Shown piece by piece: positions 16,539-37,644 of a DNA stretch of 45,475 nt. A program made the translations under genes and the position numbers. The notes beneath the pieces were generated by a model. The model was not told the origin of the DNA, did not search any database, and worked only from the letters and a program-made list of their open reading frames with translations. The stretch is from Comamonadaceae bacterium (GTDB lineage: Bacteria > Pseudomonadota > Gammaproteobacteria > Burkholderiales > Burkholderiaceae_C): positions 1-45,475 of the forward strand of contig CANFXC010000017.1 of assembly GCA_947450765.1 (NCBI GenBank), written 5' to 3'. Position 1 is the first letter of the stretch, and every line of letters begins with the position of its first letter.

Positions 16539-16580
16539 AAGTCAACTCAACGCCCGTCATTTAATCTTAATCGCCCATTG

Positions 16581-17369
16581 ATGCAGCCCCCACAAACCCT
16601 CACGCCGACAGACAACGGCATGGCCGCATTCGCCCTTCAGGACAGAGGTGCGCCGCGCAGACCCAAAGGCTTGGTGACTGAAGTTGTCGACAGTTTGGCC
16701 GGCAGCATACGAGAAGGCCAACTGCAGCCAGGCACCAAACTGCCGACCGAAGCCGAAATCATGAGCCATTTCGGCGTTAGCCGGACGGTCGTGCGTGAAG
16801 CCATCTCAAAACTGCAAGCGTCCGCACTGGTTGAAACACGGCACGGCATCGGCACCTTTGTGCTGGCCCCTCAGGACCCCGGCAATTTCAAGATCGCGGC
16901 GGAAGACTTCACCACGATCGCTGATGTGATTTCAGTGTTGGAACTGCGCATCAGCCTAGAGACCGAGACTGCTGGCCTGGCTGCCCTGCGCCGCACGCCT
17001 GACAACTTGCTGGCCATGAAGACCGCACTGGACGCCTTTAAAGTATCGATTCAAGAAGACTCAGATGCCGTGCCGCCTGACTTCCAGTTCCACATGGAAG
17101 TGGCTCATTCGACCGGCAACCGCCACTTTGCCGACTTGATGACCTACCTCGGCACCATGATCATTCCACGCACACGGGTCAACACCACGTTGAACGCACC
17201 CGAGGGCCGGCTGAAGTATTTACAACGCGTCCACAGTGAGCACGAGAACATCTATCAGGCGATTCAACAACAAGATGTCGAGGCAGCCCGGGCGGCTATG
17301 CGCACGCATTTGTCAAACAGCCGCGAGCGCTTGCAAAAAGGCAATAACCTGCACACGATGCAGCCCTAG
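16581..17369 (+). CDS. FadR-subfamily GntR transcriptional regulator
   Basis: A 262-residue regulator. After a poorly conserved leader, residues 33-100 form the GntR winged helix (VTEVVDSLAGSIREGQLQPG, KLPTEAEIMSHFGVSRTVVREAISKL). The FCD effector domain follows, with the metal-binding pattern DFQFHMEVAHSTGN and SEHENIYQAI...MRTHLSN. It is divergent from garL, and the repeated operator points to control of garL and the udh operon by an aldarate or uronate intermediate; this is inference. A TTG three bases upstream (16578) could also serve as start. Confidence 0.85.
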   Translation: MQPPQTLTPTDNGMAAFALQDRGAPRRPKGLVTEVVDSLAGSIREGQLQPGTKLPTEAEIMSHFGVSRTVVREAISKLQASALVETRHGIGTFVLAPQDPGNFKIAAEDFTTIADVISVLELRISLETETAGLAALRRTPDNLLAMKTALDAFKVSIQEDSDAVPPDFQFHMEVAHSTGNRHFADLMTYLGTMIIPRTRVNTTLNAPEGRLKYLQRVHSEHENIYQAIQQQDVEAARAAMRTHLSNSRERLQKGNNLHTMQP

Positions 17370-23215: not shown

Positions 23216-23980
23216 TCAGAGCTGAAACAAGCTGCCTTTGCCAACCATCCGCCGTGTGTCTATACCGGCAAGCTTCAAAGCTTTCCAGACCACGGTGGCA
23301 ATGGTGTCGTAAACAGGAACACCAAACTCAGCCTCCAGCTCGGGCACCAGCGGTGCGCCACGCAAATTCGTACAAAAAATGGCAACCGCTTCGGGTCGCT
23401 TGTCAGCCGGGCCGGACATCACGGCACGCACCATCTCTCGGATTTGCTCGTCACTGACTTCTGAGAACGAAAAATTGTCTTGCAGTCCTAAGTGGCGCTC
23501 GGCCACGCAGTCAATGCCTTCTTGCGCATAGTTACCGACAATCGCGGCTTGAACGTCGGCCCGGTAAGGGGTCACCAAACCAAGGCGGCGAACCGACGTG
23601 GCCTGCAAAATTTCATTCAAGGCCAGCACTGACGTGCACGCCAGAGCGCCGGTCGTGCGTTCAATGGCGGCGCACAGCTGACGGTCTGACTCAAAACCCA
23701 ACCAGCCTGAAGATGTGCCGTTCCAGCTGATCACTTGGCAGCGGGCATGCGAGAGCAATTCGGCAGCCGCCAATATTTCCCGGTTGTCAAACTGAGCCAA
23801 AGCCCCCGCTGACAAAGCGATTTCAGTCACCCGAAAGCGACCAAAATGCGCACTGACTTCGGGTAGGTCAGAAAGCATGGCCGCAGTGACGGGCTCCAAA
23901 ACGGTATTGGACGAAGGGGTCAGCATCCCCAAAAGAATACGCGTGAGAGGTGCTGTAGCCGGTGTGTCGTTGAAGTTCAT
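23216..23980 (-). CDS. Arylmalonate decarboxylase / maleate cis-trans isomerase-like protein
   Basis: A 254-residue member of the Asp/Glu racemase superfamily. GMLTPSSNTVLEPV at 18-31 is the N-terminal signature of the maleate isomerase/arylmalonate decarboxylase group. The first half-site reads SWNGTSSGW (Gly88-Thr-Ser90), as in arylmalonate decarboxylase, where maleate isomerase has a catalytic cysteine. The second half-site keeps a cysteine, Cys203 in FCTNLRG. With a single cysteine, decarboxylation or one-base isomerisation is more likely than two-base racemisation. The ATG at 23980 is favoured over 24007 by family length. It diverges from a GntR gene, so it belongs with the first heterocycle island; its substrate is unknown. 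Confidence 0.75.
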   Translation of the reverse strand: MNFNDTPATAPLTRILLGMLTPSSNTVLEPVTAAMLSDLPEVSAHFGRFRVTEIALSAGALAQFDNREILAAAELLSHARCQVISWNGTSSGWLGFESDRQLCAAIERTTGALACTSVLALNEILQATSVRRLGLVTPYRADVQAAIVGNYAQEGIDCVAERHLGLQDNFSFSEVSDEQIREMVRAVMSGPADKRPEAVAIFCTNLRGAPLVPELEAEFGVPVYDTIATVVWKALKLAGIDTRRMVGKGSLFQL

Positions 23981-24047
23981 AAGTGAGTCCATCAAAGCCA
24001 GAAGCATGCCAGCTTGCTTTTAAACAAGGCCCGATCCAGGCATCAAT

Positions 24048-24078
24048 GGATACGATCAGCTACGATTCTTGTATCCAG
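24048..24078. promoter_or_regulatory. Operator pair upstream of the GntR gene (TGGATAC / GTATCCA)
   Basis: TGGATAC at 24048-24054 and GTATCCA at 24072-24078 form an inverted pair with a 17-bp spacer. The second copy sits in TTGTATCCAG. They lie in the divergent region between the decarboxylase-like gene and the GntR gene, 58-88 bp before the latter. The same element recurs at four other sites in this island, suggesting autoregulation. Confidence 0.6.
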
Positions 24079-24135
24079 AAAATTTCAGTCTCAGCTGTTC
24101 GAGCGTGCACGACTCTTGCTCTAGCCTACCCATCC

Positions 24136-24867
24136 ATGACAAAACCTAAAGCCAACGCCGCCAAACCTGTGCCTCCAGCCGGCCGCCGCGCTGCAACGCA
24201 AGCCGATATTCACCAGCGTATTTACGATGCAATTGTTGAGCACCGGCTGCTCCCGGGTACCAAGCTGTCAGAAGAACGGGTGGCCGAACTTTTTGCCGTG
24301 AGCCGGACACAGGTGCGTGGCGCATTGCAGCGCTTGGCTGTCGAACAGCTGATCACGCAAGTCCCCAACCGAGGCGCGTTTGTCACCACCCCTACTGCAG
24401 AAGAAGCCCAAGATGTGCTGTCTGTCAGGCGTACTTTAGAGCCCGCAGGCGTAGCGCGACTGATAGAGCGCATTGCCGCAGGCAAGGCGCCAAGCGCCGT
24501 CAAAGATTTGCGGGCACTGGTCAAGCGTGAGCATCAAGCACATGCGCAGGGAGACCGGCGTCAGACGGTGCGCTTGTCAGGCGACTTTCATGTGCTGCTG
24601 GCCGAATTATCCGGAAGCAGCATCTTGGCGCGGCTCATGAGAGAGCTCACGCCACTGACTTGTCTGGCCATCCTGACTTTCGAGGCACCGACCTCCACCG
24701 CCTGCCCGAATGACGAGCACGAACTGTTGATCGACGCGATCGAAGCTGGCGATGCGTTGGGTGCAGAGCGGCTCATGATCGACCATCTGAAACACATCGA
24801 AAACGCCCTGAAGCTCGATGCGCATCAAGTGCAGGAAGTTGACCTTGCCGACGTGCTTTTTGGCTGA
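24136..24867 (+). CDS. GntR family (FCD) transcriptional regulator of the heterocycle island
   Basis: A 243-residue regulator. Residues 20-90 are the GntR winged helix (ADIHQRIYDAIVEHRLLPGTK, LSEERVAELFAVSRTQVRGAL, PNRGAFVTTP). The FCD domain follows with SGDFHVLLAEL and NDEHELLIDAIEAGDALGAERLMIDHLKHIE, which supply the acidic and histidine metal or ligand residues. The frame extends to 23983, but the ATG at 24136 gives usual length. The repeated TTGTATCCAA element at its own and neighbouring promoters is its probable operator. The inducer is unknown, probably a ring-opened amide or carboxylate. Confidence 0.85.
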   Translation: MTKPKANAAKPVPPAGRRAATQADIHQRIYDAIVEHRLLPGTKLSEERVAELFAVSRTQVRGALQRLAVEQLITQVPNRGAFVTTPTAEEAQDVLSVRRTLEPAGVARLIERIAAGKAPSAVKDLRALVKREHQAHAQGDRRQTVRLSGDFHVLLAELSGSSILARLMRELTPLTCLAILTFEAPTSTACPNDEHELLIDAIEAGDALGAERLMIDHLKHIENALKLDAHQVQEVDLADVLFG

Positions 24868-24886
24868 GCCGCTCGGCAGACCCAAC

Positions 24887-26314
24887 TCAATCCTCCATCA
24901 TGATGGGTGAAAACGCCGACGCACCCAGCACCTGCTCGGCATGCCACGCCAGCCGCATGACCAGCGCATCTGCGTAGCGCGGCCCAGCAATTTGGAGCCC
25001 GACCGGCAAACCCTGACGCCCCTGACCGCAAGGCAATGAAATGGCAGGCACACCGCCGTAGTTAAAAATCGGGGTGAAGGCCGCATGACCGCGCGGTCCA
25101 GCAGGCAAACCACCAATGGTGTCCGGACCCAGACTGCCCAAAGGCCAAGCTTCAACGGGACTCACAGGGCAAAGCAAAGCATCGTATTGCGCGAATAAAC
25201 GCGTGAAACTGGCGTGAAACTCCTCCCGCAGCTTGAGCAGCTCAGTCACCCGGGTCCCCGAAACGGCGAAGCCGAGTTCGATCTGAGCGCCGATATCAGG
25301 GTCCAGCAGCTCCGGCGTCTTTCGCCAAACATCACCAAAACGCTGCGCTAATCCGGCCTGCTGCAATGCAATGAGCGGATATTCGCGGGCCTCTGCAGGC
25401 CAGACCGGATCGGCCCTCTCAATGTGCCAACCCGCTTGACGCAGGGCCGCAACAGCGGCCTCCAAGGTGTCCAGTACATCAACGTCCACCGGCAAATCAC
25501 AACCCAAATGCGGCGACCATGCCAAGCGCAGCGGCCCCAGCGGCGCCTTCAGCGTCGGCATGACATCTGGCACCGCAAAGGCCGGAGATGACAGCGTGTC
25601 CGCCGGTTCCCAAGCGGTCAAGGCGTCCAGCATGAAAGCCACATCTTCTACATTTCGGCCTATTTGCCCCACCACAGACAGCAAATGATTGGGGTCGTCA
25701 AAACCCCACGGGTTGGGCACGCGACCCAGGGTCGGCTTCATACCGACCAGCCCGGTGTGCGCACAAGGACGACGCACCGAACCACCCGCATCAGTCGCCA
25801 ACGCCAGTGGCCCCAGCCCGGCGCTAACGCCAGCGACAGCACCGCCCGATGACCCGCCCGGTGTGCGCTGCAAGTCCCACGGATTGTGGGTTTCGCCATG
25901 CAGCGGTGTGGCCGTAATGCCCTTGCAGGCAAACTCAGAACTGTTAGTCACCCCCAACGGCACAGCCCCCAGCGCACGCAGCCGGGCAACACACCAGGAG
26001 TCTCGCGGTGCCACAAAGTCAGCAAACACCAAGGAGCCAAAGGTTGCCGGGCGGCCGCCCAGCCATAGGTTGTCCTTGACCGTGAAGGGCACACCCGCCA
26101 AGGGCAAATGCTCGCCAGCCGCGAGACGTGCATCAACCTCCCGCGCAACCGCCATGGGCAGCTCCGGGTCAAAATCAGCAAATGCATTGAGCCTCGGCTC
26201 CAGCCGTTGCACACGTTCACAGAAAAATGCGGCCACCTGGCTCGCGCTGAGTTTTCGGGCAGACACTTCCTGCGCAACGCGCAGGGCAGACCAGCGGTGT
26301 AAATCGTTCATCAT
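24887..26314 (-). CDS. Amidase signature family hydrolase
   Basis: A 475-residue amidase with the Ser-cisSer-Lys triad: Lys80 in GVPFTVKDN, Ser155/Ser156 in TPGGSSGGAVAG and the nucleophile Ser179 in ATDAGGSVRRP. HTGLVGMKPTLGRVP follows. It hydrolyses a carboxylic amide or carbamoyl group; GatA can be excluded because gatC and gatB are absent and the C-terminus is short. AAGGA precedes the ATG at 26314. It is convergent with the GntR gene and divergent from the ATZ/TRZ amidohydrolase. It might replace the N-carbamoyl hydrolase otherwise missing from this island; this is inference. Confidence 0.87.
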   Translation of the reverse strand: MMNDLHRWSALRVAQEVSARKLSASQVAAFFCERVQRLEPRLNAFADFDPELPMAVAREVDARLAAGEHLPLAGVPFTVKDNLWLGGRPATFGSLVFADFVAPRDSWCVARLRALGAVPLGVTNSSEFACKGITATPLHGETHNPWDLQRTPGGSSGGAVAGVSAGLGPLALATDAGGSVRRPCAHTGLVGMKPTLGRVPNPWGFDDPNHLLSVVGQIGRNVEDVAFMLDALTAWEPADTLSSPAFAVPDVMPTLKAPLGPLRLAWSPHLGCDLPVDVDVLDTLEAAVAALRQAGWHIERADPVWPAEAREYPLIALQQAGLAQRFGDVWRKTPELLDPDIGAQIELGFAVSGTRVTELLKLREEFHASFTRLFAQYDALLCPVSPVEAWPLGSLGPDTIGGLPAGPRGHAAFTPIFNYGGVPAISLPCGQGRQGLPVGLQIAGPRYADALVMRLAWHAEQVLGASAFSPIMMED

Positions 26315-26366
26315 TGAGGATCCTTGGTTCGACGGCTTACGCAATGGATGCACCATACAGACAACT

Positions 26367-26376
26367 TTGTATCCAA
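26367..26376. promoter_or_regulatory. TTGTATCCAA element, amidase side
   Basis: Exact copy of the element, 53 bp before the amidase start codon, in the 242-bp divergent region. It is part of a pair with the inverted copy at 26516. Confidence 0.6.
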
Positions 26377-26515
26377 TTTAGTGCTTCGCTGCACCACCTT
26401 GAGTCGTTAACAGCAGACATACGGCCCAGGTCATCTCGCCCGGCTCTTTTTGCGTCTATTGAGAACATCTATTGCAAGACTGAGTCCAGCTTGCCAATGC
26501 AGACGCGCTTCAAGA

Positions 26516-26525
26516 TTGGATACAA
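26516..26525. promoter_or_regulatory. TTGGATACAA element (inverted copy), amidohydrolase side
   Basis: Exact reverse complement of the copy at 26367, 149 bp from it and 31 bp before the amidohydrolase ATG, where binding would block or guide the polymerase. Confidence 0.6.
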
Positions 26526-26556
26526 GACTGGCATGTTGATTGCGTGACCCCACGCC

Positions 26557-27915
26557 ATGACACAGACCGACAGCCTCTACGACTTCGACCTCTTGTTGCT
26601 CGACGCCATCGCCCTGACCGCTGACGCCCTGCAACCCGAAATAAGAGATTGCGCCATTGGCATCAAAGATGGCCGGATCACTTGGCGGGACACCAAGCCC
26701 CCTGAAAAGTACACGGCTGCGCGCACGCTTCGGCTACCGGGCCACTTCATCACCCCGGGCTTCGTCAACACCCATACCCACAGCGTGCTGAGCATGGTGC
26801 GGGGGGTGGCGGCAGACTTGGGTTTTGCGCCGTCTTACACACCCGGAATTCCCAAGGGCACGCAGGTCACCCCACCACAAGCCCGAGCACTTGCACGGCT
26901 GGGCGCGCTGGAAGCCCTCCTCTTTGGGTCGACGGTTTTAGGAGACCATTTTGTTCACGCGGATGTCACAACCCAAGCCATGGCGGAGCTTGGTTTACGG
27001 CTGTGTCCAAGTTGGCGAATTCACGATGTTGATTTTTCAAAGGTGGCGCAAGGTCAGTGGCAACACGCCACGGCCATCGGGCAATCAACGCTTGAAGCGG
27101 CACTGCAACTGCATGAACGCTGGGCTGCGCATCCGCGCGTGCAAGTCAACCTTGCGGCGCATGCGGTGGACACCTGCTCCAACGATTTTTTAAAAGAAAT
27201 TGCGGAAATTTCGCGAGTCAAAGACCTGGTCGTCAGTACCCACTTAGGGCAAAGCCGCACAGAAGTTGACCGGGTCCTTGAGCGAACCGGCCGCACGTCT
27301 ACCGAAGTCTTGGAAGATGCAGGCCTGCTCAACCAACGGCTGATGGGCGGCCACTGCATCTACCTGACGAGCAGCGACATCGCCAAGATGGCCAACGCTG
27401 GGGCCCACGCCGTGCACATCCCCAAATGCAATGCAAGCTCAGGCCGGCTCGCACCGACCCACCTGCTCAAGGCTGCCGGTGTGAACATCGCCCTGGCCAC
27501 CGACACACAACATGGCGACATGGTGGAGTTAATGCGCTGGGCACTGATGACCGCACGCGTGCAAGAAGGTGGCGTGAACGACAACTGGCAACCGAGGCAT
27601 GTTTTTCACATGGCCACGCTGGGCGGTGCCCGTGCGCTGGGCATGCACAACAACATCGGCAGCATCGAAGTTGGCAAGGCTGCTGACCTGGTGGTGTTTG
27701 ACGGCAACAGGCCGCATCTGCGGCCCCACGTGAACCCATTGGGGAACCTGGTTCACACAGGTCAGGGCCGCGATGTGCGGATGGTGATGGTCGATGGATA
27801 CATATTGGTCGAACACGGCCTCCCGACCCAAGTGGACATGGACAGCGTTTGCGCCGAAGCCGAAACAGTTGCACGCGAGCTTTGGGGTCATGAAGGCCGC
27901 CATTACTGGCGCTGA
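26557..27915 (+). CDS. ATZ/TRZ-type amidohydrolase (putative heterocycle deaminase)
   Basis: A 452-residue metal-dependent amidohydrolase of the chlorohydrolase/cytosine deaminase group. Metal residues are visible: His73 and His75 in NTHTHS, His229 in VSTHLGQS and Asp316 in LATDTQHGD, plus His266 in GGHCIYL. In most family members the third motif reads HxxE, and that glutamate protonates the ring; here the place is Gln232. The enzyme may therefore use another acid, as some triazine hydrolases do, or act on an unusual substrate. It is the first plus-strand gene after the divergent operator region and is followed by the ABC transporter. Confidence 0.85.
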   Translation: MTQTDSLYDFDLLLLDAIALTADALQPEIRDCAIGIKDGRITWRDTKPPEKYTAARTLRLPGHFITPGFVNTHTHSVLSMVRGVAADLGFAPSYTPGIPKGTQVTPPQARALARLGALEALLFGSTVLGDHFVHADVTTQAMAELGLRLCPSWRIHDVDFSKVAQGQWQHATAIGQSTLEAALQLHERWAAHPRVQVNLAAHAVDTCSNDFLKEIAEISRVKDLVVSTHLGQSRTEVDRVLERTGRTSTEVLEDAGLLNQRLMGGHCIYLTSSDIAKMANAGAHAVHIPKCNASSGRLAPTHLLKAAGVNIALATDTQHGDMVELMRWALMTARVQEGGVNDNWQPRHVFHMATLGGARALGMHNNIGSIEVGKAADLVVFDGNRPHLRPHVNPLGNLVHTGQGRDVRMVMVDGYILVEHGLPTQVDMDSVCAEAETVARELWGHEGRHYWR

Positions 27916-27969
27916 AAAGCCGGCACGGTCATGCCCCGGAGTCGGGCGCAGTGCACCAATGCGGTTTTT

Positions 27970-27979
27970 TTGTATCCAA
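27970..27979. promoter_or_regulatory. TTGTATCCAA element before the ABC operon
   Basis: Exact copy, 55 bp after the amidohydrolase stop codon and 203 bp before the binding-protein ATG. Paired with the inverted copy at 28093. Confidence 0.55.
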
Positions 27980-28092
27980 TCTGGAATTTAAAGCCCTCGC
28001 CAAGTGCCCATCTGAAAAGTATTCAAAGAATAAAAATCCATCCATCCTCAATGAAAAATTCTGTTTTTTGAGGCTTGCATCAAAAATCTACT

Positions 28093-28102
28093 TTGGATAC
28101 AG
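28093..28102. promoter_or_regulatory. TTGGATACAG element (inverted copy) before the ABC operon
   Basis: Nine of ten bases match the inverted element. It lies 123 bp from the copy at 27970 and 80 bp before the binding-protein ATG. The 266-bp gap is A/T-richer than its surroundings and likely holds the ABC promoter. Confidence 0.55.
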
Positions 28103-28181
28103 CATCTGGCACACAGCTTGCTCCACAAAAGACAGGCGGCTCGTTTTTGGCCGTCCGTTCAACAAGTCCGAGGAAACCAAA

Positions 28182-29183
28182 ATGTTTAGATCCGTTGCGA
28201 AACTCGTGTTGGCGCTGGCCGCTGTCGTGCCTTTAGCCAGCCACGCACAAGAGGCTCCGTCCATCAAACTCGGCTATGCCAAATGTGCGCATTGCACGCC
28301 GATGGCGCTGACACCGCAGCACGCCGCCAACATCAAGCTTGAAGCTATTAACTTCAACACTGGCAACGACGTGTTGACAGCCTTGGTGTCCAAAAGCATT
28401 GACGTTGCACAGGTGACCTACCTGCACTACGCCACGGCACTGGACAGAGGTTTTGACGTGGTGGCCATCTCAGGACAAATCAATGGCGGGTCGCAAATCC
28501 TGGTCAGCAACGAGCTGTCCATCAAGGAAAACGACTGGGCCGGCTTGAAAAAAGTCATTGCCGAGTTCAAGGCTGCAGGCAAGCCCTTCCGCGTGGCCGC
28601 TTCGCGCGGTAATGCACAAGACATTCAAATGCGCGGCGCGTTCGCCAAACAAGGCATCGACGTCAACAAGGACGTTCAGTTCATCAACATCCCCAACCCA
28701 GCAGACCATGTGCAAGCACTGCGGCGCAATGAAATTGAATTGATTTCTGCGGTCGACCCTTTTGCCACACAAATCCGCCAGCTGAATGCAGCCAAGTTCT
28801 TCGCCTTCCCGTATGACCAGGCAGCCGGAAAACTCACCAACCTGATCGTCACTCGCTCCGATGTGATCGCCAGCAAACCCAAAGCAGTTGAAGAAACCGT
28901 GCGTTCCATCGTCAAAGTCAACGCCTTGTTGATCGCCGACAAAACTCTGTTCGTTGACACGATTCAAAAGATCACCGGTCTTGACAAAGCCATCGCTGCG
29001 GGCGCCGTGACCAACCTCTATCCTGACACCAATATGTACCGCGCTTCTGCCGTGTCAATGGGCGCCATGATGCGCGACCTGAAGTACATACAGACAGACG
29101 TTTCAGCAGCCATTGACAAAAACATGGACTACCGCTTTCTCGAAGCCGTCACCGGCAAACCCAAGTCTGCCCTCGGCTACTGA
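28182..29183 (+). CDS. ABC transporter substrate-binding protein (taurine/nitrate/thiamine-precursor NMT1 type)
   Basis: A 333-residue exported protein. A signal peptide covers about residues 1-22 (MFRSVAKLVLALAAVVPLASHA). The mature part starts IKLGYAKCAHCTPM and contains DVLTALVSKSIDVAQVTYLHYATAL, typical of the SsuA/TauA/NMT1 group that binds small heteroatom-rich molecules. The Cys35-x-x-Cys38 pair close to the ligand cleft is unusual. GAGGAAACC precedes the ATG. It heads an ABC operon (permease after 8 bp, ATPase after 3 bp) that continues to hydantoinase and racemase-like genes, so the ligand is probably a cyclic amide or ureide. Confidence 0.88.
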   Translation: MFRSVAKLVLALAAVVPLASHAQEAPSIKLGYAKCAHCTPMALTPQHAANIKLEAINFNTGNDVLTALVSKSIDVAQVTYLHYATALDRGFDVVAISGQINGGSQILVSNELSIKENDWAGLKKVIAEFKAAGKPFRVAASRGNAQDIQMRGAFAKQGIDVNKDVQFINIPNPADHVQALRRNEIELISAVDPFATQIRQLNAAKFFAFPYDQAAGKLTNLIVTRSDVIASKPKAVEETVRSIVKVNALLIADKTLFVDTIQKITGLDKAIAAGAVTNLYPDTNMYRASAVSMGAMMRDLKYIQTDVSAAIDKNMDYRFLEAVTGKPKSALGY

Positions 29184-29191: not shown

Positions 29192-30016
29192 ATGACCACA
29201 CCTTCTATATTGACGAGGCTGTACCGGCGCGTAGAACGCGCCATTGTTCCAACGCTGGCACTCGTCGGATGGGAGGTGTTTTCACGCTCTGGCGTACTTC
29301 CACCCGCCCTGCTGCCGGCGCCCTCGCAAGTGTTGCTCGCTTGGGCTGACTGGGTTGTCGGCACTGACGGCAACACGCAAACCTACAGCGGCCACTGGAT
29401 ATTTGACACGGCCGCCAGTGCCGCCCGGGTACTGACCGGCTTCGCACTCGCTACTGTTTTGGGCGTCGCTATGGGTATGGCGATTGGATGGTCTCGCAAA
29501 GTTGAAAAGCTGATTGAGCCGTTGCTGCAAATCCTCAGACCCATTCCACCCGTATCTTGGATTCCACTGGCCATCATCTGGTTTGGCATTGCCAACAAAC
29601 CAGCCATCTTTTTGGTCTTTCTCGGCTCCTTCTTCCCTATTCTGCTCAGCACGATTCATGGCGTCAAAACCTGTGATCGCAACCTCCTGCGCGCAGGTGC
29701 CATGGCCGGCGGTTCACCCCGAAATTTATTGATTCACATCGTCTTTCCGGCGGCCTTGCCGAGTATTTTTTCGGGCCTGCGCATTGCGATTGGCTCTGCC
29801 TGGATGCTGTCAGTCACCGCCGAGATGGTGGCCGTTAAAAGTGGCCTCGGCTACGTCCTTTGGGACTCCTACTATTTCTTACGCTACGACATCGTCATTG
29901 CCGCCATGGTGAGCATTGGTCTGCTGGGCTTTCTCAGTGACACCGCCATCAAGCTCTTGGCTGCGCGCGTGCTGCGCTGGCAGCGTGGAACCACCCTGCA
30001 AGCGAACGAAGGCTGA
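29192..30016 (+). CDS. ABC transporter permease (SsuC/TauC type)
   Basis: A 274-residue inner-membrane protein with about six membrane segments. PLLQILRPIPPVSWIPLAIIWFG at about 110 and the EAA loop RAGAMAGGSPRNLLIHIVFPAALPSIFSGLRIAIGSAW near 165-200, which contacts the ATPase, are typical of the taurine/nitrate family. It forms a homodimer with the ATPase encoded 3 bp downstream. Confidence 0.93.
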   Translation: MTTPSILTRLYRRVERAIVPTLALVGWEVFSRSGVLPPALLPAPSQVLLAWADWVVGTDGNTQTYSGHWIFDTAASAARVLTGFALATVLGVAMGMAIGWSRKVEKLIEPLLQILRPIPPVSWIPLAIIWFGIANKPAIFLVFLGSFFPILLSTIHGVKTCDRNLLRAGAMAGGSPRNLLIHIVFPAALPSIFSGLRIAIGSAWMLSVTAEMVAVKSGLGYVLWDSYYFLRYDIVIAAMVSIGLLGFLSDTAIKLLAARVLRWQRGTTLQANEG

Positions 30017-30019
30017 CCT

Positions 30020-30793
30020 ATGACACTCATCACCATTGACCGTGTTTCACGACACTTCACCGACGCCCAGAAAAACAGCACTGTCAAAGCGCTGGACAAC
30101 ATCTCGCTGGATGTCCAGCGCAATGAATTTTTGTGCCTGTTAGGCCCCAGTGGTTGCGGCAAGTCCACGCTGCTCAACATGATTGCCGGCTTTGACATGC
30201 CCTCCAGCGGCACGGTCTCCGTTGGCGGTCAAGTGATCACCGGACCCGGCTCTGACCGCGGTTTCGTGTTTCAACAACCGACCTTGATGCCGTGGCTCAC
30301 TGTCTGGGAAAACGTCGCCTTTCACCTGACCATGCGCGGCATGGACAAGGCCAAGCGCCGCGAAAAAGCGCAACACTTCATCGACATGGTTCGCTTGACC
30401 GGTTTTGAGAACCATTTCCCAAGCGAGCTGTCGGGTGGTATGAACCAGCGCGTGGGCATTGCACGTGCGTTGCTGATGAACCCCAAGGTCATCTTGATGG
30501 ACGAACCCTTTGGCGCGCTGGACGAACAAACCAAAATGGACATGCACAGCGAGTTGATCCGCATCTGGCGCGAAAGCCAGGCAACCATTGTGTTTGTAAC
30601 CCACAGCATTGAGGAATCCCTGTCGTTGGGAACGCATGTGGCCGTGATGTCGGCCAGACCCGGCCGCATCCGCGAGTTGATCAAGGTCGACCTGCCACGC
30701 CCACGCGACCCGACCAGCGCGCCATTCAATGACTACAAGCGACACATCCTCTCGCTGCTACGACCTGAGCCTGTTCATACGCCTGCTGCATAA
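30020..30793 (+). CDS. ABC transporter ATP-binding protein (SsuB/TauB type)
   Basis: A 257-residue ATPase. Walker A GPSGCGKST is near residue 41, the Q-loop is in FVFQQPTLMPW, the signature LSGGMNQRVGIARAL is near 138 and Walker B VILMDEPFGALDEQT near 158, followed by the switch His in VFVTHSIEES. It drives uptake together with the preceding permease and binding protein. A 61-bp gap separates it from the hydantoinase. Confidence 0.95.
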   Translation: MTLITIDRVSRHFTDAQKNSTVKALDNISLDVQRNEFLCLLGPSGCGKSTLLNMIAGFDMPSSGTVSVGGQVITGPGSDRGFVFQQPTLMPWLTVWENVAFHLTMRGMDKAKRREKAQHFIDMVRLTGFENHFPSELSGGMNQRVGIARALLMNPKVILMDEPFGALDEQTKMDMHSELIRIWRESQATIVFVTHSIEESLSLGTHVAVMSARPGRIRELIKVDLPRPRDPTSAPFNDYKRHILSLLRPEPVHTPAA

Positions 30794-30854
30794 CTGGCCA
30801 CTGACTGGCAACAAGAACTCAAGCCTGCAAAAACCATCTCTGTCTGCAAAAAAT

Positions 30855-32270
30855 ATGACTGACTTCGATCTCATCGTGCGCAATGCGCATGTCATCACCG
30901 CCTCTGACATTTTTGACTGCGACATCGGCATTCAGGGTGGGAAAATAGTCCAGCTGGGCCAAGCGCTAGGCACGGCTGCGCGTGAAATAGATGCAGCAGG
31001 CCGCACGGTGACGCCAGGCGGCGTGGACGCTCATTGCCATCTTGACCAGCCCATGACACCGCCCACCAAAACAGCCGATGACTTTGACACCGGCACACGG
31101 TCGGCCGCCTGCGGTGGCACGACCACCATCATCCCCTTTGCGGCGCAACAAAAAGGACAATCACTGCGGGCCGCTGTTGAAGACTACCGAGCTCGCGCCA
31201 AGGGCAAGGCTCATGTGGACTACGCGTTTCATTTGATCGTCAGCGACCCGACGCCCAAGGTGCTGCAAGAAGAGTTGCCGGAGCTGATTCGGGAGGGCTT
31301 CACGTCGTTCAAAATATACATGACCTACGACGACATGAAGCTCGACGACGGACAGATTCTCGACGTGCTGGATGTCGCCCGCCAACACGGTGCCATGGCC
31401 ATGATTCACGCCGAAAACTCCGACTGCATCGAGTGGCTGACAAAACGGCTGGAAGCGTCCGGCCGCACGGCACCCCGCTTTCATGCGCATGCACGGCCCA
31501 TGCTCGTGGAACGCGAAGCAACGCACCGTGCCATCGCGCTGGCAGAGCTGGTCGATGTGCCTATTTTGATTGTTCATGTGTCGGGCCGCGAAGCGGTAGA
31601 GCAAATTCGCTGGGCACGCGCACATGGCCTGAACGTGTTTGCAGAGACCTGCCCGCAGTACCTGTTTTTGACAGCCGAAGACTTGGGCATTGACGACAGC
31701 TACAAAGGCGCGCGTTGCATTTGCAGCCCGCCACCCCGCGACAAGGCCAACCAACAGGTCATTTGGGACGGCTTGAACGATGGTCTTTTCACCGTCTTTT
31801 CTTCCGACCATGCGCCCTTCAAGTACGACGGCATTGAAGGCAAAAAACCGAACGGGCAAGAGGTCGAATTTCGCCATATTCCCAACGGTATTCCTGGTCT
31901 TGAAACGCGCATGGCGCTGCTCTGGTCCGAAGGCGTGCTGGCCGGCAGAATGACCGCTAATCGCTTTGTAGAACTGACATCCACCGGGCCCGCCAAAGCC
32001 TATGGCCTGCACCCGCGCAAAGGCACAGTGGCGGTCGGTGCAGATGCTGACCTGGTGATTTGGGATGAACGCGATTTTGTACTGACAAACGAGATGCTGC
32101 ATCACGAGGTTGACTACACGCCCTATGAAGGCATGCGCCTCAAAGCTTGGCCGGGCCTCACACTCAGCCGTGGTGAAGTGGTGTGGGACGGTCGCGACTT
32201 TCATCCCCAGCCGGGCCGTGGCGAACTGCTGGCGCGTGGCGCACCGACCTTGTTGCCGACCCGGCGTTAA
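30855..32270 (+). CDS. Hydantoinase / dihydropyrimidinase
   Basis: A 471-residue cyclic amidohydrolase that opens hydantoin or dihydropyrimidine rings to N-carbamoyl amino acids. Zinc and catalytic parts are in order: GGVDAHCHLDQP near 58, the carboxylated Lys in SFKIYMTYDD near 150, IHAENSD, HVSGREAVEQI, and SSDHAPF with the catalytic Asp. The frame extends to 30729 inside the ATPase gene, but the ATG at 30855 agrees with the family start. It is followed after 12 bp by the racemase-like gene. The enzyme is closer to dihydropyrimidinases than to allantoinase. Confidence 0.92.
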   Translation: MTDFDLIVRNAHVITASDIFDCDIGIQGGKIVQLGQALGTAAREIDAAGRTVTPGGVDAHCHLDQPMTPPTKTADDFDTGTRSAACGGTTTIIPFAAQQKGQSLRAAVEDYRARAKGKAHVDYAFHLIVSDPTPKVLQEELPELIREGFTSFKIYMTYDDMKLDDGQILDVLDVARQHGAMAMIHAENSDCIEWLTKRLEASGRTAPRFHAHARPMLVEREATHRAIALAELVDVPILIVHVSGREAVEQIRWARAHGLNVFAETCPQYLFLTAEDLGIDDSYKGARCICSPPPRDKANQQVIWDGLNDGLFTVFSSDHAPFKYDGIEGKKPNGQEVEFRHIPNGIPGLETRMALLWSEGVLAGRMTANRFVELTSTGPAKAYGLHPRKGTVAVGADADLVIWDERDFVLTNEMLHHEVDYTPYEGMRLKAWPGLTLSRGEVVWDGRDFHPQPGRGELLARGAPTLLPTRR

Positions 32271-32282: not shown

Positions 32283-33050
32283 ATGCGTTTATTGATCATC
32301 AACCCCAATATTTCGGACAGCGTCACCGCGCTGATTGAAGCCGAAGCACGGCGCAGTGCAGCGCCGGAAACGCAAATCACCATGCTGACGGCAGCCTTTG
32401 GCGTGGCCTATATCGAGACTCGTTTTGAAGCGCTGATTGGCGCTTACGCCACGGCGCAATTGGCGGCAGAACACCATGCTGGGCATGACGCCGTCATCAT
32501 TGCCGCCTTTGGCGATCCGGGGCTTGCAGGCCTTCGGGAAGCGTTACCGATGCCGGTGCTGGGCATGACAGAGTCCGCGCTGGCAACGGCTTGTTTGCTG
32601 GGTCATCGGTTTTCAATCATCGCTATTTCTCAGCGCATTCAGGCCTGGTACAGGGAGGTGGTTGAGGCCAATGGGCTGGTCGGCCGATTGGCCAGCATCA
32701 GGGCGCTTGACCTTCCACTGGCCAGCATTGGCAGTGTGCAAGACGACCACCTGGAAGCCTTGCGAAGCTTGTGCGAGAAAGCCGTTCGCGAAGACGGTGC
32801 CGAAGTGATTATTCTGGCCGGTGCCCCGCTGGCCGGACTGGCACGCGCACTGCACGGACAGCTGCCCGTACCAGTGGTCGACGGTGTTTCAAGTGCGGTG
32901 CAGCACGCCCAAACATTGGTGGCACTGCAACCTGGCAAGGCCACGCTGGGGAGCTTTTCAAGCCCGCCCGTGAAACCCAACCGCGGCCTGCCAGACGCCA
33001 TAGCCCGCCTGCTGGCGGGCTCAAGCGGAACGAAGCCGGAGGCGCTGTAA
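32283..33050 (+). CDS. Asp/Glu/hydantoin racemase-like protein lacking both catalytic cysteines
   Basis: A 255-residue protein of the hydantoin racemase (HyuE) family: MRLLIINPNISDSVTALIE at the N-terminus, DAVIIAAFGDPGL, PVLGMTESAL and PVVDGVSSAVQHAQTL. In the known racemases a cysteine stands at the third position of IACFGDPG and a second in LGCxGM. Here these are Ala75 and the segment LAGAPLAG (Gly180). Simple two-base racemisation is therefore unlikely. AAAGGAG precedes the ATG. Placed after the hydantoinase, it may be a ligase-free isomerase, a lyase or a binding protein. A perfect 8-bp hairpin lies within its 3' end (33002-33021). Confidence 0.85.
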   Translation: MRLLIINPNISDSVTALIEAEARRSAAPETQITMLTAAFGVAYIETRFEALIGAYATAQLAAEHHAGHDAVIIAAFGDPGLAGLREALPMPVLGMTESALATACLLGHRFSIIAISQRIQAWYREVVEANGLVGRLASIRALDLPLASIGSVQDDHLEALRSLCEKAVREDGAEVIILAGAPLAGLARALHGQLPVPVVDGVSSAVQHAQTLVALQPGKATLGSFSSPPVKPNRGLPDAIARLLAGSSGTKPEAL

Positions 33051-33092: not shown

Positions 33093-34145
33093 TCAGACCT
33101 TGACTTCGCGGTTGAAGCGGTCGATGTACTCAGCGCGACGCGGGTTGAGCTTGGCCCAGTCAACACCGTTCATGGCTTCGATCGCCTGGGTGTCGGCCGC
33201 GTAAACGGACAAGCCCTTGCTGAACTTCGCCTTCGCGCTGGTGGGTGCCACGATGTACGGCACTTCGGCCATCTGGGTTTGCACCTCAGGGCTGATAGCC
33301 GCATTGATGTAAGCCGCCGCCAAGTCCACATTTTTTGAGTTTTTGACGATGTGCATCGAGCTCTTGATGTGGATCCAGCCAGTGTCTGGCTTGACCAACG
33401 CCACAGGCACGCCCTTGGACTGCAAGTCGCCCACATTGTTGTTGTAGTGGACAGAGATATCAATCTGGCCTTGCTGGAACAGCGTGGCCAGCGAGCCAGG
33501 GTTGGAGGCCACGGCGCTGACGTTGGGCAGCAGACGCTTGATGAACTGGAAGGCTGGTTCCATGTTTTCTTCACTGCCGCCATTCAGACGGGCGATCTCG
33601 ACCATCCAGGCAGACATCAGTGTCGAGCCCATGCCGGCCAGACCCACGCGGCCCTTGAACTCAGGCTTGAGCAGGTCGTTCCAGTTGCGCGGCGGGTTCT
33701 TGATCTTCTCGGTGTTGTAAGCGATGCCGATGATCTGGCCTGACACAAAAACACCTAAGCCACGCGGGTCGACAAACTTGCGGGGGATGTCCTTGAGGTT
33801 GGGCATTTTGTAAACGGGGATCTTCTCAAAGATGTCGTGCTGTAGAGCATTCAGGTAGGGGCCTTCGTCCAAGATGATCACGTCAAAAGGCGGGTTGGCC
33901 TTAGACGCCACGACCTTGGAGACGGTGTCAACGGCCAAACTGGATACAAGATTGGTGCTCGCACCGGTGGCCTTGGCGAAGGCCGGCATCAAGATCTGGC
34001 GGTGGGCTGACTCCCAGGCACCAGGGTAGGTGGTAGCCGAGATGCTCTTGGCCTGCGCCATTGACAGAGTTGGCAGGCTCAGCGATGCAGCTGTGGCGGC
34101 GCCAGCGTGTAGGAAGCCGCGACGATTCAGGTGGGAGAAGGACAT
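33093..34145 (-). CDS. Polyamine/iron-type ABC substrate-binding protein with Tat-like signal
   Basis: A 350-residue exported protein of the PotD/FbpA group. Its N-terminus carries NRRGFLHAGAATAASLSLP, a twin-arginine type signal, with cleavage expected after about residue 31. The mature part (TYPGAWESAHRQILMPAFAKATG, DVIILDEGPYLNAL, GIAYNTEKIKNPPRNWNDLLKPEFKGRV) has the usual family pattern. The ATG at 34145 is chosen since the signal begins there. It is transcribed away from its ATPase and permeases, starting in the 204-bp region shared with them. The ligand is unknown but should fit the deaminase and cyclic-amide hydrolases that follow the permeases. Confidence 0.88.
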   Translation of the reverse strand: MSFSHLNRRGFLHAGAATAASLSLPTLSMAQAKSISATTYPGAWESAHRQILMPAFAKATGASTNLVSSLAVDTVSKVVASKANPPFDVIILDEGPYLNALQHDIFEKIPVYKMPNLKDIPRKFVDPRGLGVFVSGQIIGIAYNTEKIKNPPRNWNDLLKPEFKGRVGLAGMGSTLMSAWMVEIARLNGGSEENMEPAFQFIKRLLPNVSAVASNPGSLATLFQQGQIDISVHYNNNVGDLQSKGVPVALVKPDTGWIHIKSSMHIVKNSKNVDLAAAYINAAISPEVQTQMAEVPYIVAPTSAKAKFSKGLSVYAADTQAIEAMNGVDWAKLNPRRAEYIDRFNREVKV

Positions 34146-34277
34146 AGCGATGCTTTCTGTGATGAAGACAGCTGTATTGAGCAAGGCTCATGCCATCACC
34201 GCAGGTAGTTCGCAGCCGTTAGATGCGTCTTGTTGGGGCTTGTGGGTTGATCTTGGTGCACAAATCGAAATAAATTG

Positions 34278-34305
34278 TGTCCAAAGTTGTGCCAGATTGT
34301 GGACA
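34278..34305. promoter_or_regulatory. Inverted repeat TGTCCA / TGGACA in the divergent ABC promoter region
   Basis: TGTCCA (34278-34283) and TGGACA (34300-34305) face each other across 16 bp. The first copy sits in TTGTGTCCAA, which differs by one base from the TTGTATCCAA element of the neighbouring island. It is 45-72 bp before the ATPase start and about 130 bp before the binding-protein start. Confidence 0.45.
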
Positions 34306-34349
34306 TTCAGACCTATGGACTGGGCACGATTCTTGATAGCTTCAACTGT

Positions 34350-35444
34350 ATGAATTTATCAAACCATGCTGGGGTGGCGTTGCGCTTCGAGGGTATCAGG
34401 CATGTCTATGCCGACTCAGTGGCTGTCGCCGATGTTGACCTCGCGGTTGCGCCTGGGGAACTGGTCGCCTTGCTGGGCCCCAGTGGGTGTGGCAAGACGA
34501 CTCTGTTGCGCATCGTCGCGGGTCTGCTGCGGCAGTCGGCGGGTCGGGTGTTCATTGATGGCCAACAAGTAGACGCGCTGTCCACGGGGGCAAGGCGTGT
34601 TGGCATCGTTTTCCAGAACTACGCCCTGTTTCCGCACATGGATGTGCGCGCCAATGTGGGCTACGGCCTTCGGGCCCAAGGTGCACCTGCCGCGCAAATA
34701 CAGGAGACGGTCGATCGCATGCTGGACTTGGTGCAAATGCGTGCCTTTGGTCACCGCATGCCGCGCGAGCTTTCGGGTGGTCAGCAGCAGCGGGTGGCGC
34801 TGGCGCGCACTTTGGCCGTCCGTCCACAGGTGCTTTTGTTGGACGAACCCTTCGCGGCGCTGGACAAAAACCTGCGTCTGGACATGCAGATAGAAATCCG
34901 CCGCATCCAGCGGGAGCTGGGGATCACCACGCTTTTAGTCACGCACGACCAGGAAGAAGCGATGTCCATGGCCGACCGCATTGCAGTGATGAATGCCGGC
35001 CGCGTCGATCAATTCGACCGACCCGAGACGGTCTATGACTGGCCGGCCTCGCGTTTTGTGGCGAGCTTCATCGGCACCGCCAATCTGCTGCCCGGTCGCC
35101 TGCAGCGCATCGGCGAAGGATTCGAGTTGCAGTGCGCCGCAGGGGGACGACTTTCACTGGCCGCTGCTGCGCCTTGTTCGCGTGACGGCGCGGCAGTTCT
35201 CTCGGTGCGACCCGAGCACCTGGCCTTCACCAGCCTTGACGCAGGTGGGCCGCAAGCGACCGTGTTGATGGTGGTGCCCCTAGGGCCGCAGCGCGTCTAT
35301 GAGTTGTTGCTTGATGGCGGCACCAGCGTCAAAGTGACGATGCCCCGCCACAGTGCCGATGCGCCGCTGATCCCGGGTCAGCGTATCGGCCTGCGTCTGC
35401 GTGAGGGCGCACCTGCGGCGGTCTTTGTGCCGGAGGCTGCATGA
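34350..35444 (+). CDS. ABC transporter ATP-binding protein (PotA/FbpC type)
   Basis: A 364-residue ATPase with a C-terminal TOBE-like domain. Walker A GPSGCGKTT near residue 43, Q-loop in VFQNYALFPHM, signature LSGGQQQRVALARTL near 140 and Walker B VLLLDEPFAALDKNLR near 160 are present, with the switch His in LVTHDQEEAMSMADRI. The tail from about 245 (GTANLLPGRLQ, LSVRPEHLAF) is the TOBE regulatory part. The ATG at 34350 gives the usual N-terminus. The next permease overlaps its stop by 4 bp. Confidence 0.94.
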   Translation: MNLSNHAGVALRFEGIRHVYADSVAVADVDLAVAPGELVALLGPSGCGKTTLLRIVAGLLRQSAGRVFIDGQQVDALSTGARRVGIVFQNYALFPHMDVRANVGYGLRAQGAPAAQIQETVDRMLDLVQMRAFGHRMPRELSGGQQQRVALARTLAVRPQVLLLDEPFAALDKNLRLDMQIEIRRIQRELGITTLLVTHDQEEAMSMADRIAVMNAGRVDQFDRPETVYDWPASRFVASFIGTANLLPGRLQRIGEGFELQCAAGGRLSLAAAAPCSRDGAAVLSVRPEHLAFTSLDAGGPQATVLMVVPLGPQRVYELLLDGGTSVKVTMPRHSADAPLIPGQRIGLRLREGAPAAVFVPEAA

Positions 35445-36295
35445 GCCAGGCCGCCAGTCCAACCCGCAGCGGTCTGTGGCTGGCACTGCCACTGGGCCTG
35501 TTCTTTGCCGCCTTCGTGGTGGCCCCTTTGATGCTGTTGCTGTTTGTCAGTCTGTACTCTGATGCCAGCATGACTCAGCATGGGTTTGAGCAGTACATTC
35601 GATTCTTGGGCGACGACTTCAACCGCGGCGTTCTGATCAACACGCTTGGTCTGGGACTTAAGGTCACTGCGCTGACTTTGGTGCTCGGGTTTCCTTTGGC
35701 CTATGCCTACACCCTGACGCCACGCCGGTGGCAGGGTCTGTTAATGCTGTTGATCATTCTGCCGCTGTTGACCAGCGCGGTGGTCCGCACCTTCGCCTGG
35801 GTGGTGATTTTGGGCCGCGAAGGTATCGTTAATGTCGGGCTGCAGTCGCTCGGTTGGGTGGATGGGCCGCTGCGCCTGCTCTACACCCCCGGGGCGGTGG
35901 TGGTGGCTGTCGCCCAGATCGAACTTCCCTTGATGGTGCTGCCGGTGATCACGGCCTTGATGAACAGCGACCCGAACTTGCGGCAGGCCTCATTGGCCTT
36001 GGGGGCTGGCCATTGGCGCACGCTGATGCTGGTCACCCTGCCGCTGGCGGTGCCAGGCCTGTTGACTGGAGCGTTGCTGGTGTTTGCCTCCAGCGTGAGC
36101 GCCTTCGTGACCCAGACCCTGGTCGGTGGTGGTCAGAATATTTTGATGCCTTTCTACATGTATCAGCAGGCCATCCAGGCCAACAACTATCCGTTTGCCG
36201 CAGCCATTGCCATAACGCTGCTGGTGACCGTGATGGTGGTCGTCACCCTCATGAATTTACTGGGCCGGCGCGCCAAGGGGTTTGTCCATGCATGA
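35441..36295 (+). CDS. ABC transporter permease 1 (PotB type)
   Basis: A 284-residue inner-membrane protein with about six membrane segments. It resembles the first permease of polyamine transporters: LPLLTSAVVRTFAWVVILGREG near 105, then the EAA loop RQASLALGAGHWRTLMLVTLPLAVPGLLTGALLVF around 180-215. It starts within an ATGA overlap with the ATPase and overlaps the next permease by 8 bp, so the three are translationally coupled. Confidence 0.92.
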   Translation: MSQAASPTRSGLWLALPLGLFFAAFVVAPLMLLLFVSLYSDASMTQHGFEQYIRFLGDDFNRGVLINTLGLGLKVTALTLVLGFPLAYAYTLTPRRWQGLLMLLIILPLLTSAVVRTFAWVVILGREGIVNVGLQSLGWVDGPLRLLYTPGAVVVAVAQIELPLMVLPVITALMNSDPNLRQASLALGAGHWRTLMLVTLPLAVPGLLTGALLVFASSVSAFVTQTLVGGGQNILMPFYMYQQAIQANNYPFAAAIAITLLVTVMVVVTLMNLLGRRAKGFVHA

Positions 36296-37142
36296 CGCTC
36301 AGCCAAGCAGTAAGAGCATGCCCGCACGTGAGCCTGCCTTAGCCGTCTGGGAAAGACGCAGCTTCACACTGGCGATAGGCCTGCTTGCCGGCCTGACCGC
36401 GCTGCTGTTGCTGGCGCCCACGCTGGTGGTGTTGATCACATCTTTCACCAGCGGTTTCTCGCTCAAGTTCTTGCCGCCTGGGTATTCGACGCGCTGGTAC
36501 CTGGCGCTGTGGAACGACTCACCGGAACTCATCAAAGCGCTGGTCTTGTCCCTTGAGGTGGCAGCCTTGGCCAGCGGCGTCTCGATCGTGCTGGCGGTGG
36601 CTGCCGCCGTGGCACTAGCGCGCCGCCGCGAGGCCTGGGCGCGTGTCATTGAGGCGGTGTTTCTGTCCCCTCTGATGCTGCCGACCTTGGCACTGGGCCT
36701 GGCGCTGCTGATGCTGTTCAACTTAGCTGGCACCGGTCTGAGTTTTACGACACTGGTGATCGGGCACGTGGCGATCACAGCACCCTATGTGCTGCGCACC
36801 ACCGCCGCCAGCTTGGCGCAGATGGACCCTGCACTGCTTGAAAGCGCGCGTAGTCTGGGTGCCAAGCCCGTCTTCATCTTTCGCAGCATCACCTTGCCCT
36901 TGATTTTTCGCGGCGTTGCGGTGGGCGCTTTTATCGGCTTCATGTACTCGTTTGACAACGTGGCGGTCAGCCTGTTCCTGTCCGACGCCCGCTCTGAGAT
37001 GCTGCCAATCCGGATGTGGCACATCATCGAAAACGACTTGGATGTGCGGGCCGCAGCGCTGTCGGGTGTATTGATTGCTTTCACCTTGGTTCTGATGCTG
37101 GTGATGGAACGCATCGCCGGGCTTTCAAAGCATTTGAGATGA
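36288..37142 (+). CDS. ABC transporter permease 2 (PotC type)
   Basis: A 284-residue inner-membrane protein that pairs with permease 1. FLSPLMLPTLALGLALLML is near 130 and the EAA loop ESARSLGAKPVFIFRSITLPLIFRGVAVG near 190-220. AAGGGG precedes the ATG at 36288; a TTG two codons earlier is less likely. It ends 20 bp before the 3' end of the opposing deaminase gene. Confidence 0.92.
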   Translation: MHDAQPSSKSMPAREPALAVWERRSFTLAIGLLAGLTALLLLAPTLVVLITSFTSGFSLKFLPPGYSTRWYLALWNDSPELIKALVLSLEVAALASGVSIVLAVAAAVALARRREAWARVIEAVFLSPLMLPTLALGLALLMLFNLAGTGLSFTTLVIGHVAITAPYVLRTTAASLAQMDPALLESARSLGAKPVFIFRSITLPLIFRGVAVGAFIGFMYSFDNVAVSLFLSDARSEMLPIRMWHIIENDLDVRAAALSGVLIAFTLVLMLVMERIAGLSKHLR

Positions 37143-37162
37143 CCTGGGGTAGCGCCACGTCC

Positions 37163-37627
37163 TCAGCGTGCGACCCGGTCGCGCCCCCACTGCCGGCGCA
37201 GGGTCTCGTAGGCGTTCTCCAGTACGCCGTCGCTCACCTGCAAATCGTGCCCGGTCATCTCACAGTGAGACTCTATCGAGTAGCGACCCAGGTCAGTGCG
37301 TTGCAGCTTGGCATGGCGCAATGCCAACACCAGTCGGCTGATGCCGGCCAGCTGCAAGGCGCCCGCGCACATCGGGCAAGGCTCCATCGTGCAGTACAGC
37401 GTCGCGCCGTGAGTGGCCTCGGGGCCATGCGCCGCAGCGGCTCGCCGGATCGCGTCTGGCTCGGCATGCAGCAGCGGATCTCCAGTGCTGACCTGACGGT
37501 TCTGGCCGGTAGCCAAGAGCGCCCCATTTCTCACAATCACGGCACCGGTCGGCCAGTCGCCGCGTTCATAAGCCTCGCGGGCTTGCGTCAACGCCATCTC
37601 CATCCAGTGTTCGTCTTGAGTTTTCAT
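37163..37627 (-). CDS. Cytidine/guanine deaminase-fold zinc deaminase
   Basis: A 154-residue deaminase of the CDA superfamily. The zinc site is His54-Ala-Glu56 and the pair Cys84/Cys87 in MEPCPMCAGAL. The layout is closest to guanine deaminase GuaD and the TadA group; it is not the housekeeping TadA by context. It would deaminate a free base or amino-substituted ring. It is the only minus-strand gene between the plus-strand ABC and amidohydrolase genes; its start lies 17 bp from the divergent amidohydrolase start and its end 20 bp from the permease end. The ribosome site is poor. Confidence 0.87.
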   Translation of the reverse strand: MKTQDEHWMEMALTQAREAYERGDWPTGAVIVRNGALLATGQNRQVSTGDPLLHAEPDAIRRAAAAHGPEATHGATLYCTMEPCPMCAGALQLAGISRLVLALRHAKLQRTDLGRYSIESHCEMTGHDLQVSDGVLENAYETLRRQWGRDRVAR

Positions 37628-37644
37628 ATAAGGGGTCAAGCACA

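Follow-up and report, generated by a model that had tools for sequence, protein, structure and literature searches.

What protein reads the short word that recurs ahead of a group of putative heterocycle-catabolic genes in a Comamonadaceae bacterium, and what would its binding do there? The window (the whole 45,475-nucleotide stretch that was analysed, positions 1 to 45,475 of contig CANFXC010000017.1) carries the 10-mer TTGTATCCAA / TTGGATACAA in three regulatory gaps, among genes for an arylmalonate-decarboxylase-like (Amdase-like) protein, a GntR-family regulator with an FCD domain (24136-24867), an amidase, an amidohydrolase and an ATP-binding cassette (ABC) transporter. We propose that this word is very probably the operator of the FCD-type GntR protein, a predicted repressor that would occlude sigma54 promoters and place the genes under an AND gate of nitrogen limitation and inducer.

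The repeated word and its conservation

A sequence-only reading of this DNA had placed the element in the gaps before the GntR gene, the amidohydrolase gene and the ABC operon, and all six copies are found there: three exact, two with one mismatch and one with two. Its positions 26367, 26516, 27970 and 28093 were right, and those given as 24048 and 24072 were off by 2-3 bp and lie at 24046 and 24069; the pair spacings are 23, 149 and 123 bp, the first having been put at about 24. The GTATCCA/TGGATAC segment, reported as kept in five copies, is present in 6/6. The members of each pair are in opposite orientation as had been claimed, but the arrangement is not uniform, 26367/26516 and 27970/28093 being convergent pairs and 24046/24069 a divergent one.

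At up to two mismatches the window alone is mildly enriched, with 33 matches against 23.3 expected, a level reached by 5/100 shuffles. The whole assembly (3,039,609 bases in 151 contigs, 86.7% complete) contains four exact copies of the 10-mer, three of these in a single 1.6 kb part of the window, and one of the reversed word. At up to one mismatch there are 65 copies against 45 reversed, and the scattered one-mismatch copies are therefore mostly background. A genome-wide count and a comparison of related loci had both been suggested as checks on the sequence-only reading, and both bear it out.

The GntR protein, used as query, returned 47 loci, 33 of them at 64-86% identity (L031-L063) and 14 more distant. 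At least one copy with no more than one mismatch is present in 31/33 of the close loci, and an exact copy in 30/33; together they hold 68 exact copies of the word and none of its reverse, and at up to one mismatch the counts are 97 and 3, respectively. An exact copy occurs in 0/14 of the more distant loci. Nearly all of the exact copies (66/68) lie outside tblastn-verified ortholog matches and the other two at match edges; this split supersedes a crude one based on open reading frames, which placed 42/71 exact copies in coding DNA, thought to be due to long reading frames spanning gaps. The word is the commonest intergenic 10-mer in 20 dereplicated sequences (with a crude gene mask). Across the loci its sites precede the Amdase/GntR pair, the amidase, the amidohydrolase and the operon of the substrate-binding protein (SBP), and in many relatives they also lie between the ATPase and binding-protein genes of a second ABC transporter. 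Single copies can be followed: TCGTATCCAA, the counterpart of the copy at 24046, stands at the identical 23 bp spacing in L032, L034 and L036, and the counterpart of 26367 is kept in the amidase gap of L031-L036, L057, L060 and L062. The core stays fixed while the flanks diverge among loci. It had been called half-palindromic, but the core is strictly asymmetric: TTGTATCCAA occurs 71 times in the window and the 33 loci (34 sequences), and neither of the symmetric forms, TTGTATACAA and TTGGATCCAA, occurs at all.

Association with the GntR regulator

The window regulator falls in the FadR/FCD subfamily of GntR proteins, scoring 56.3 bits with PF00392 (cut-off 27) and 75.2 bits with PF07729 (cut-off 24.3). 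It is neither HutC (TIGR02018, 34.9 bits against a cut-off of 220, over residues 24-100 only, the C-terminal domain being FCD) nor the phosphonate regulator (phnR_burk TIGR03338, 88.2 bits against 271.5). The stretch VSRTQVR in its recognition helix is shared with all 33 orthologs L031-L063 (34/34) and with none of the distant homologs aligned.

The word tracks this regulator. Among 250 genomes of the family a GntR match of at least 73% identity is present in six, the window's own included, the others among the matches listed being at 52% or less; an SBP ortholog (E <= 1e-100) is present in five genomes, all within these six, and a convergent pair with 90-120 bp between its sites in two, both among the six. 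In 16 chosen genomes, 19 exact copies are found in the five carriers, and 14 of these adjoin GntR or the SBP operon; the 11 non-carriers have five single exact copies, and the reversed word occurs four times over all 16. One genome (G177) has the SBP operon on a different contig from GntR, and the operon still has its operator pair and sigma54 site.

A further comparison comes from 399 genomes drawn from the order (thresholds E <= 1e-90 for SBP and 1e-70 for GntR), of which none but the window's own has a GntR passing 1e-70 and only one other, G345, has an SBP at E <= 1e-90 (59% identity). The G345 operon (SBP, permease, ATPase, Amdase, hydantoinase and amidohydrolase) is transcribed divergently to the gene of a 47%-identical GntR with STRGRIRQ in its recognition helix. 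Even with one mismatch allowed, TTGTATCCAA is absent from the gap between them; the 12-mer ATTGCGCACAAT occurs there twice in the same orientation, 213 bp apart (L098, 15193 and 15406), and these are its only two exact occurrences in the 4.6 Mb genome. The proximal copy, TTGCGCACAA, ends 13 bp ahead of TGGCACAGCTATTGCT, and a TGCACC-N5-GGTGCA dyad is readable in the gap. In this single case promoter and layout are kept while regulator helix and operator word differ together, and G345 and the window (same operon and sigma54 site, other GntR helix, other operator) form a natural comparison for GntR-DNA specificity. Rarity, conservation, GntR tracking, the unlinked G177 operon and the joint change in G345 all point to the GntR regulon that the sequence-only reading had put forward, and we infer that the regulator binds the word.

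Sigma54-type promoters and the proposed repression

Sigma54-type promoters standing against the operator had been missed in that reading and are seen here. Sites were scored by sequence as TGGCAC-N5-TTGC, with at least 10/12 positions and GG-N10-GC, within 20 bp of a copy and reading TTGGATACAA towards the gene. We considered 26 convergent pairs, comprising 25 close-pair listings (with a pair spacing of 151 bp in L033) and one L047 pair with the second site TTGAATCCAA; eight other close pairs (four -/-, three -/+ and one +/+) were left out. A sigma54-type element follows the proximal copy in 26/26 pairs and the distal copy in 0/26; the gap to the proximal copy is 2-4 bp for 23 pairs and 14-17 bp for three. 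For 101 core copies (104 copies at up to one mismatch minus three without the GT..TCCA core) the sigma54 site is on the ACAA-half side in 40 and on the other side in five, with about 0.2 expected per side. The genome contains 11 matches to the strict pattern TGGCAYRNNNNTTGCW and 2 to its reverse; an operator copy lies no more than 220 bp upstream of the two matches in the window (28107 and 34180), and of none of the other nine. When 30 of the 65 genome matches at up to one mismatch were taken as loci (L001-L030), a sigma54 match of at least 10 adjoined the copy only at 26516 and 28093. In the amidase gap a sigma54-like site (TGG-N10-GC, mostly CTGGAA...CTTGCA) is present in 8/9 gaps scanned, the loose pattern finding none in L057. 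The Amdase/GntR gaps of L031, L032, L034, L035 and L036 have a same-strand sigma54-like site of at least 10/12; the window counterpart was read by eye, as the scan of that gap started at 24000 and did not cover the whole site.

GCACC boxes, which resemble half of the NtrC consensus (GCACCA-N3-TGGTGC, as quoted in PMC12977541), stand 11-15 bp upstream of 22/25 distal operators examined (shuffle mean 1.3, maximum 5), the 25 sites having been hand-picked from the same orthologous loci. When the NtrC-like protein of the genome was compared by tblastn with the window and the 47 loci to look for a local enhancer-binding protein, it matched only L032, and a global activator is therefore assumed. Elsewhere, similar boxes lie before the sigma54 site of a binding-protein gene that is nitrate-type by eye (L092), and at L085 (G000:C16:30371) a strict sigma54 site precedes an open reading frame of 492 aa that is amidase-like by eye, with a GCACC box just upstream.

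The proximal copy lies directly upstream of the -24 box, at about -39 to -30 for the commonest gap of 3 bp (GG at -25/-24), and from this position we infer repression: a GntR dimer on this copy would block access of sigma54-RNA polymerase. The other copy of the pair faces the opposite way, 23-170 bp farther upstream and near GCACC/GGTGC boxes, and repressor at this site could disturb the enhancer or the contact between enhancer and promoter. Two conditions would have to coincide for transcription: nitrogen starvation, under which phosphorylated NtrC would drive sigma54, and an inducer, derived from the pathway, that would release GntR. The transporter, the amidase, the amidohydrolase, the hydantoinase, the racemase and the Amdase-like protein would thus be produced only under nitrogen shortage and in the presence of a cyclic ureide- or imide-like substrate. 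Pieces of rpoN and of an NtrC-like protein in the assembly speak for this scheme. In a more specific and quite doubtful form of this proposal, the operator is directional and non-palindromic with its ACAA half mostly facing the -24 box, and the two sites fence the DNA between NtrC enhancer and sigma54 promoter; if so, repression would hit both enhancer-promoter contact and polymerase binding, and the module would keep its layout while regulator and operator sequence change together.

Several observations weigh against repression by this GntR at sigma54 promoters. L059 (65% identity, with the same VSRTQVR helix) has no copy at up to one mismatch, L042 has none in its available DNA, where the flank is missing on one side, and 8/14 of the distant loci do have a one-mismatch copy; moreover, the 33 orthologous loci share kinship, so counts across them are not independent. 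A strictly asymmetric core is unusual for a symmetric dimer. The five copies with the sigma54 site on the other side are all in Amdase/GntR gaps (L031, L032, L034 and L036 among them), at 11-12 bp rather than 2-4 bp, so neither register nor orientation is universal, and the operator at 26367, being downstream of the amidase's own sigma54-like site, cannot occlude that promoter likewise. As for the activator, the second half of the NtrC enhancer dyad is mostly degenerate, the boxes being mostly half-sites; rpoN is in two pieces on two contigs of the assembly, each under the family cut-off, and the NtrC-like protein piece in the assembly is under its own.

The alternative that survives best, and which we still regard as unlikely, is that a GntR tetramer on paired sites loops out the enhancer-promoter linker, with spacing and helical phase mattering. 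Looping had been suggested from the spacings, two opposite-orientation sites do recur before most of these operons, and 10.5 bp phasing gave p 0.009 over 11 amidase-type gaps; however, significance is lost when the set is dereplicated to 8 gaps (p 0.094), 11 SBP-type gaps show no phasing at 10.5 bp (p 0.10; other periods 0.02-0.14) and the spacings of convergent pairs vary between 23 and 170 bp. Divergent gaps may just hold one site per operon, as for one GntR divergon group in section 16 of PMC4494728.

It is improbable that another regulator binds the element, or that the element belongs to the sigma54 and enhancer machinery, with GntR just a neighbour. The near-fixed distance of the proximal copy to the sigma54 site would suit such an element, as would a core that fits the FadR-type consensus in one half only, but the word follows this GntR and not sigma54: G345 keeps the operon and the sigma54 site with another GntR and another word, and the nine strict sigma54-like sites elsewhere in the genome lack a copy. 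The element is also too near -24, where an enhancer-binding protein would not sit. Slightly less credible again is a GntR activator that aids recruitment of sigma54 polymerase from about -35; the near-fixed spot just upstream of -24 would also suit a stabilising factor, but sigma54 polymerase requires an AAA+ ATPase to start transcription (PMC5491218), and HutC, the comparable known case, represses (PMC12977541). The idea that the copies are alike by chance in AT-richer gaps, or that the gaps simply share ancestry, agrees with the only mild two-mismatch enrichment of the window and is rejected as next to impossible, given the genome-wide rarity of the exact word, the counts in carriers and non-carriers, the fixed core among diverging flanks and the absence of reversed copies against 68 exact ones.

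Content of the predicted regulon and known counterparts

The features of the predicted regulon are collected in Table 1. The genes that the sequence-only reading had tied into one unit (decarboxylase-like protein, regulator, amidase, deaminase, transporter, hydantoinase and racemase-like protein) stay in it, and a second island (33093-40884) probably belongs too, through the operator at 34275. This island encodes an ABC transporter, a second TRZ/ATZ amidohydrolase, a PuuE-like allantoinase (PDB 3cl6, 1.6e-80; TIGR03212 314.2 bits, under the cut-off of 424.6) and a second hydantoin/allantoin racemase. The genes for the transporter and amidohydrolase of this island adjoin the same GntR in Variovorax-type loci, and the gap that contains 34275 holds TTGTGTCCAA or TTGTATCCAA in many relatives (for example L038-L040, L043 and L054, and L037, L041, L045, L048 and L050-L053). 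A one-mismatch copy, TTGTATCCAG on the - strand at 33940-33949, lies within the second-island binding-protein coding sequence and has no sigma54 site adjoining. The gene set fits a cyclic ureide or cyclic imide as nitrogen source; unnamed heterocycle enzymes become a defined regulon with predicted operators, promoters and regulator, which points to nitrogen scavenging.

Table 1. Coordinates of operators, promoters, boxes and genes of the predicted regulon in the window.
Feature	Position	Strand	Remarks
Operator copy, Amdase/GntR gap	24046..24055	-	TCGTATCCAT on - strand, two mismatches
Operator copy, Amdase/GntR gap	24069..24078	+	TTGTATCCAG, one mismatch
Operator, amidase/amidohydrolase gap	26367..26376	+	exact; distal copy for amidohydrolase promoter
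Operator, proximal, amidohydrolase	26516..26525	-	exact; 3 bp ahead of sigma54-like promoter
Operator, distal, before ABC operon	27970..27979	+	exact
Operator, proximal, before ABC operon	28093..28102	-	CTGTATCCAA, one mismatch; 4 bp ahead of sigma54 promoter
Operator variant, second-island gap	34275..34284	+	TTGTGTCCAA; 79 bp before sigma54 site 34180
Sigma54-like site, Amdase-like gene	23996..24011	-	TGGCATGCTTCTGGCT; read by eye; TGGC not TTGC at -12
Sigma54-like site, amidase	26473..26489	-	CTGGACTCAGTCTTGCA; sequence pattern
Sigma54-like -24/-12, amidohydrolase gene	26529..26544	+	TGGCATGTTGATTGCG; 10/12 consensus positions, GG-N10-GC
Sigma54 promoter, ABC operon	28107..28122	+	TGGCACACAGCTTGCT; 11/12 positions; one of 11 strict genome matches
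Sigma54 promoter, second-island binding-protein gene	34180..34195	-	TGGCATGAGCCTTGCT; one of 11 strict genome matches
GCACC box	26350..26354	+	12 bp before operator 26367
GCACC box, NtrC half-site-like	27953..27957	+	12 bp before distal operator 27970
Arylmalonate-decarboxylase/maleate-isomerase-like (Amdase-like) protein	23216..24007	-	PF17645 1.1e-21; PDB sequence matches to arylmalonate decarboxylase and maleate isomerase; by eye, the start is probably close to 23980
GntR-family regulator with FCD domain, presumed binder	24136..24867	+	PF00392 2.5e-15, PF07729 7.8e-21
Amidase-signature amidase	24887..26356	-	PF01425 1.7e-91; true start probably near 26313, by eye
TRZ/ATZ-type amidohydrolase, deaminase-like	26557..27915	+	PF01979 5.3e-48; best PDB sequence matches an uncharacterized protein and amidohydrolases; under every NCBIfam cut-off among those listed
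NMT1/SsuA-type substrate-binding protein, first ABC operon gene	28182..29183	+	PF13379 1.3e-21
ABC permease	29192..30016	+	PF00528
ABC ATPase	30020..30793	+	PF00005
D-hydantoinase/dihydropyrimidinase	30729..32270	+	NF009941 777.6 bits (cut-off 647), TIGR02033 536.1 (393.25); listed reading-frame start overlaps ATPase
Asp/Glu/hydantoin racemase, allantoin-racemase-like	32283..33050	+	PF01177 1.5e-44; PDB 5lfd 3.9e-37

Two known systems resemble this predicted one. In Pseudomonas, HutC represses hutU and protects DNA that overlaps the sigma54 site; the operon is said to be under NtrC activation too, and a pathway intermediate releases HutC (PMC12977541). The likeness lies in a GntR-family repressor set against the sigma54 site of an NtrC-linked catabolic operon, as predicted here; HutC differs in being of another subfamily, binding TGTA-N2-TACA and acting on other genes, whereas here the regulator is FadR/FCD-type and the word asymmetric, usually in two separate oriented copies. 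The divergons of FadR-subfamily GntR regulators (PMC4494728) are alike in regulator type and in double sites in divergent gaps with TKGT/ACMA-like boxes. Their operator consensus (TKGT/ACMA boxes, GT and AC 2-3 nt apart) is not matched by the halves here, one being TTGT and the other TTGG, and the core here is never symmetric; sigma54 placement is not among the subjects of the parts of PMC4494728 covered. Since the HutC footprint overlaps a sigma54 site on an NtrC-linked operon, the logic of GntR repression over sigma54 is already known, as are double sites in GntR divergent gaps; the FCD-type regulator, the asymmetric oriented word and its near-fixed distance to the -24 box are the differences. 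A literature search (titles and the starts of abstracts, most subscription journals being outside its coverage) turned up nothing on this regulon, from which we do not claim its absence from print, and the papers containing the 10-mer include none on a GntR regulator by title. A candidate GntR-gated sigma54 AND gate with an oriented operator is on offer for testing.

A third locus type, with a GntR gene beside an allantoin-racemase-like gene, is represented by a Serratia rubidaea locus (L074), which, as a guess, we take to be HpxS. At 9924-9933 of this locus, about 120 bp upstream of the GntR match, is the symmetric TTGTATACAA, one base from the window word; the locus differs from the window in this symmetry and in a GntR identity of only 31%, and the NCBIfam matches of the window GntR include no HpxS model. 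HpxS is named in PMC4494728. Within the window, a second FCD-type GntR regulator gene (16578-17369) lies about 7 kb upstream.

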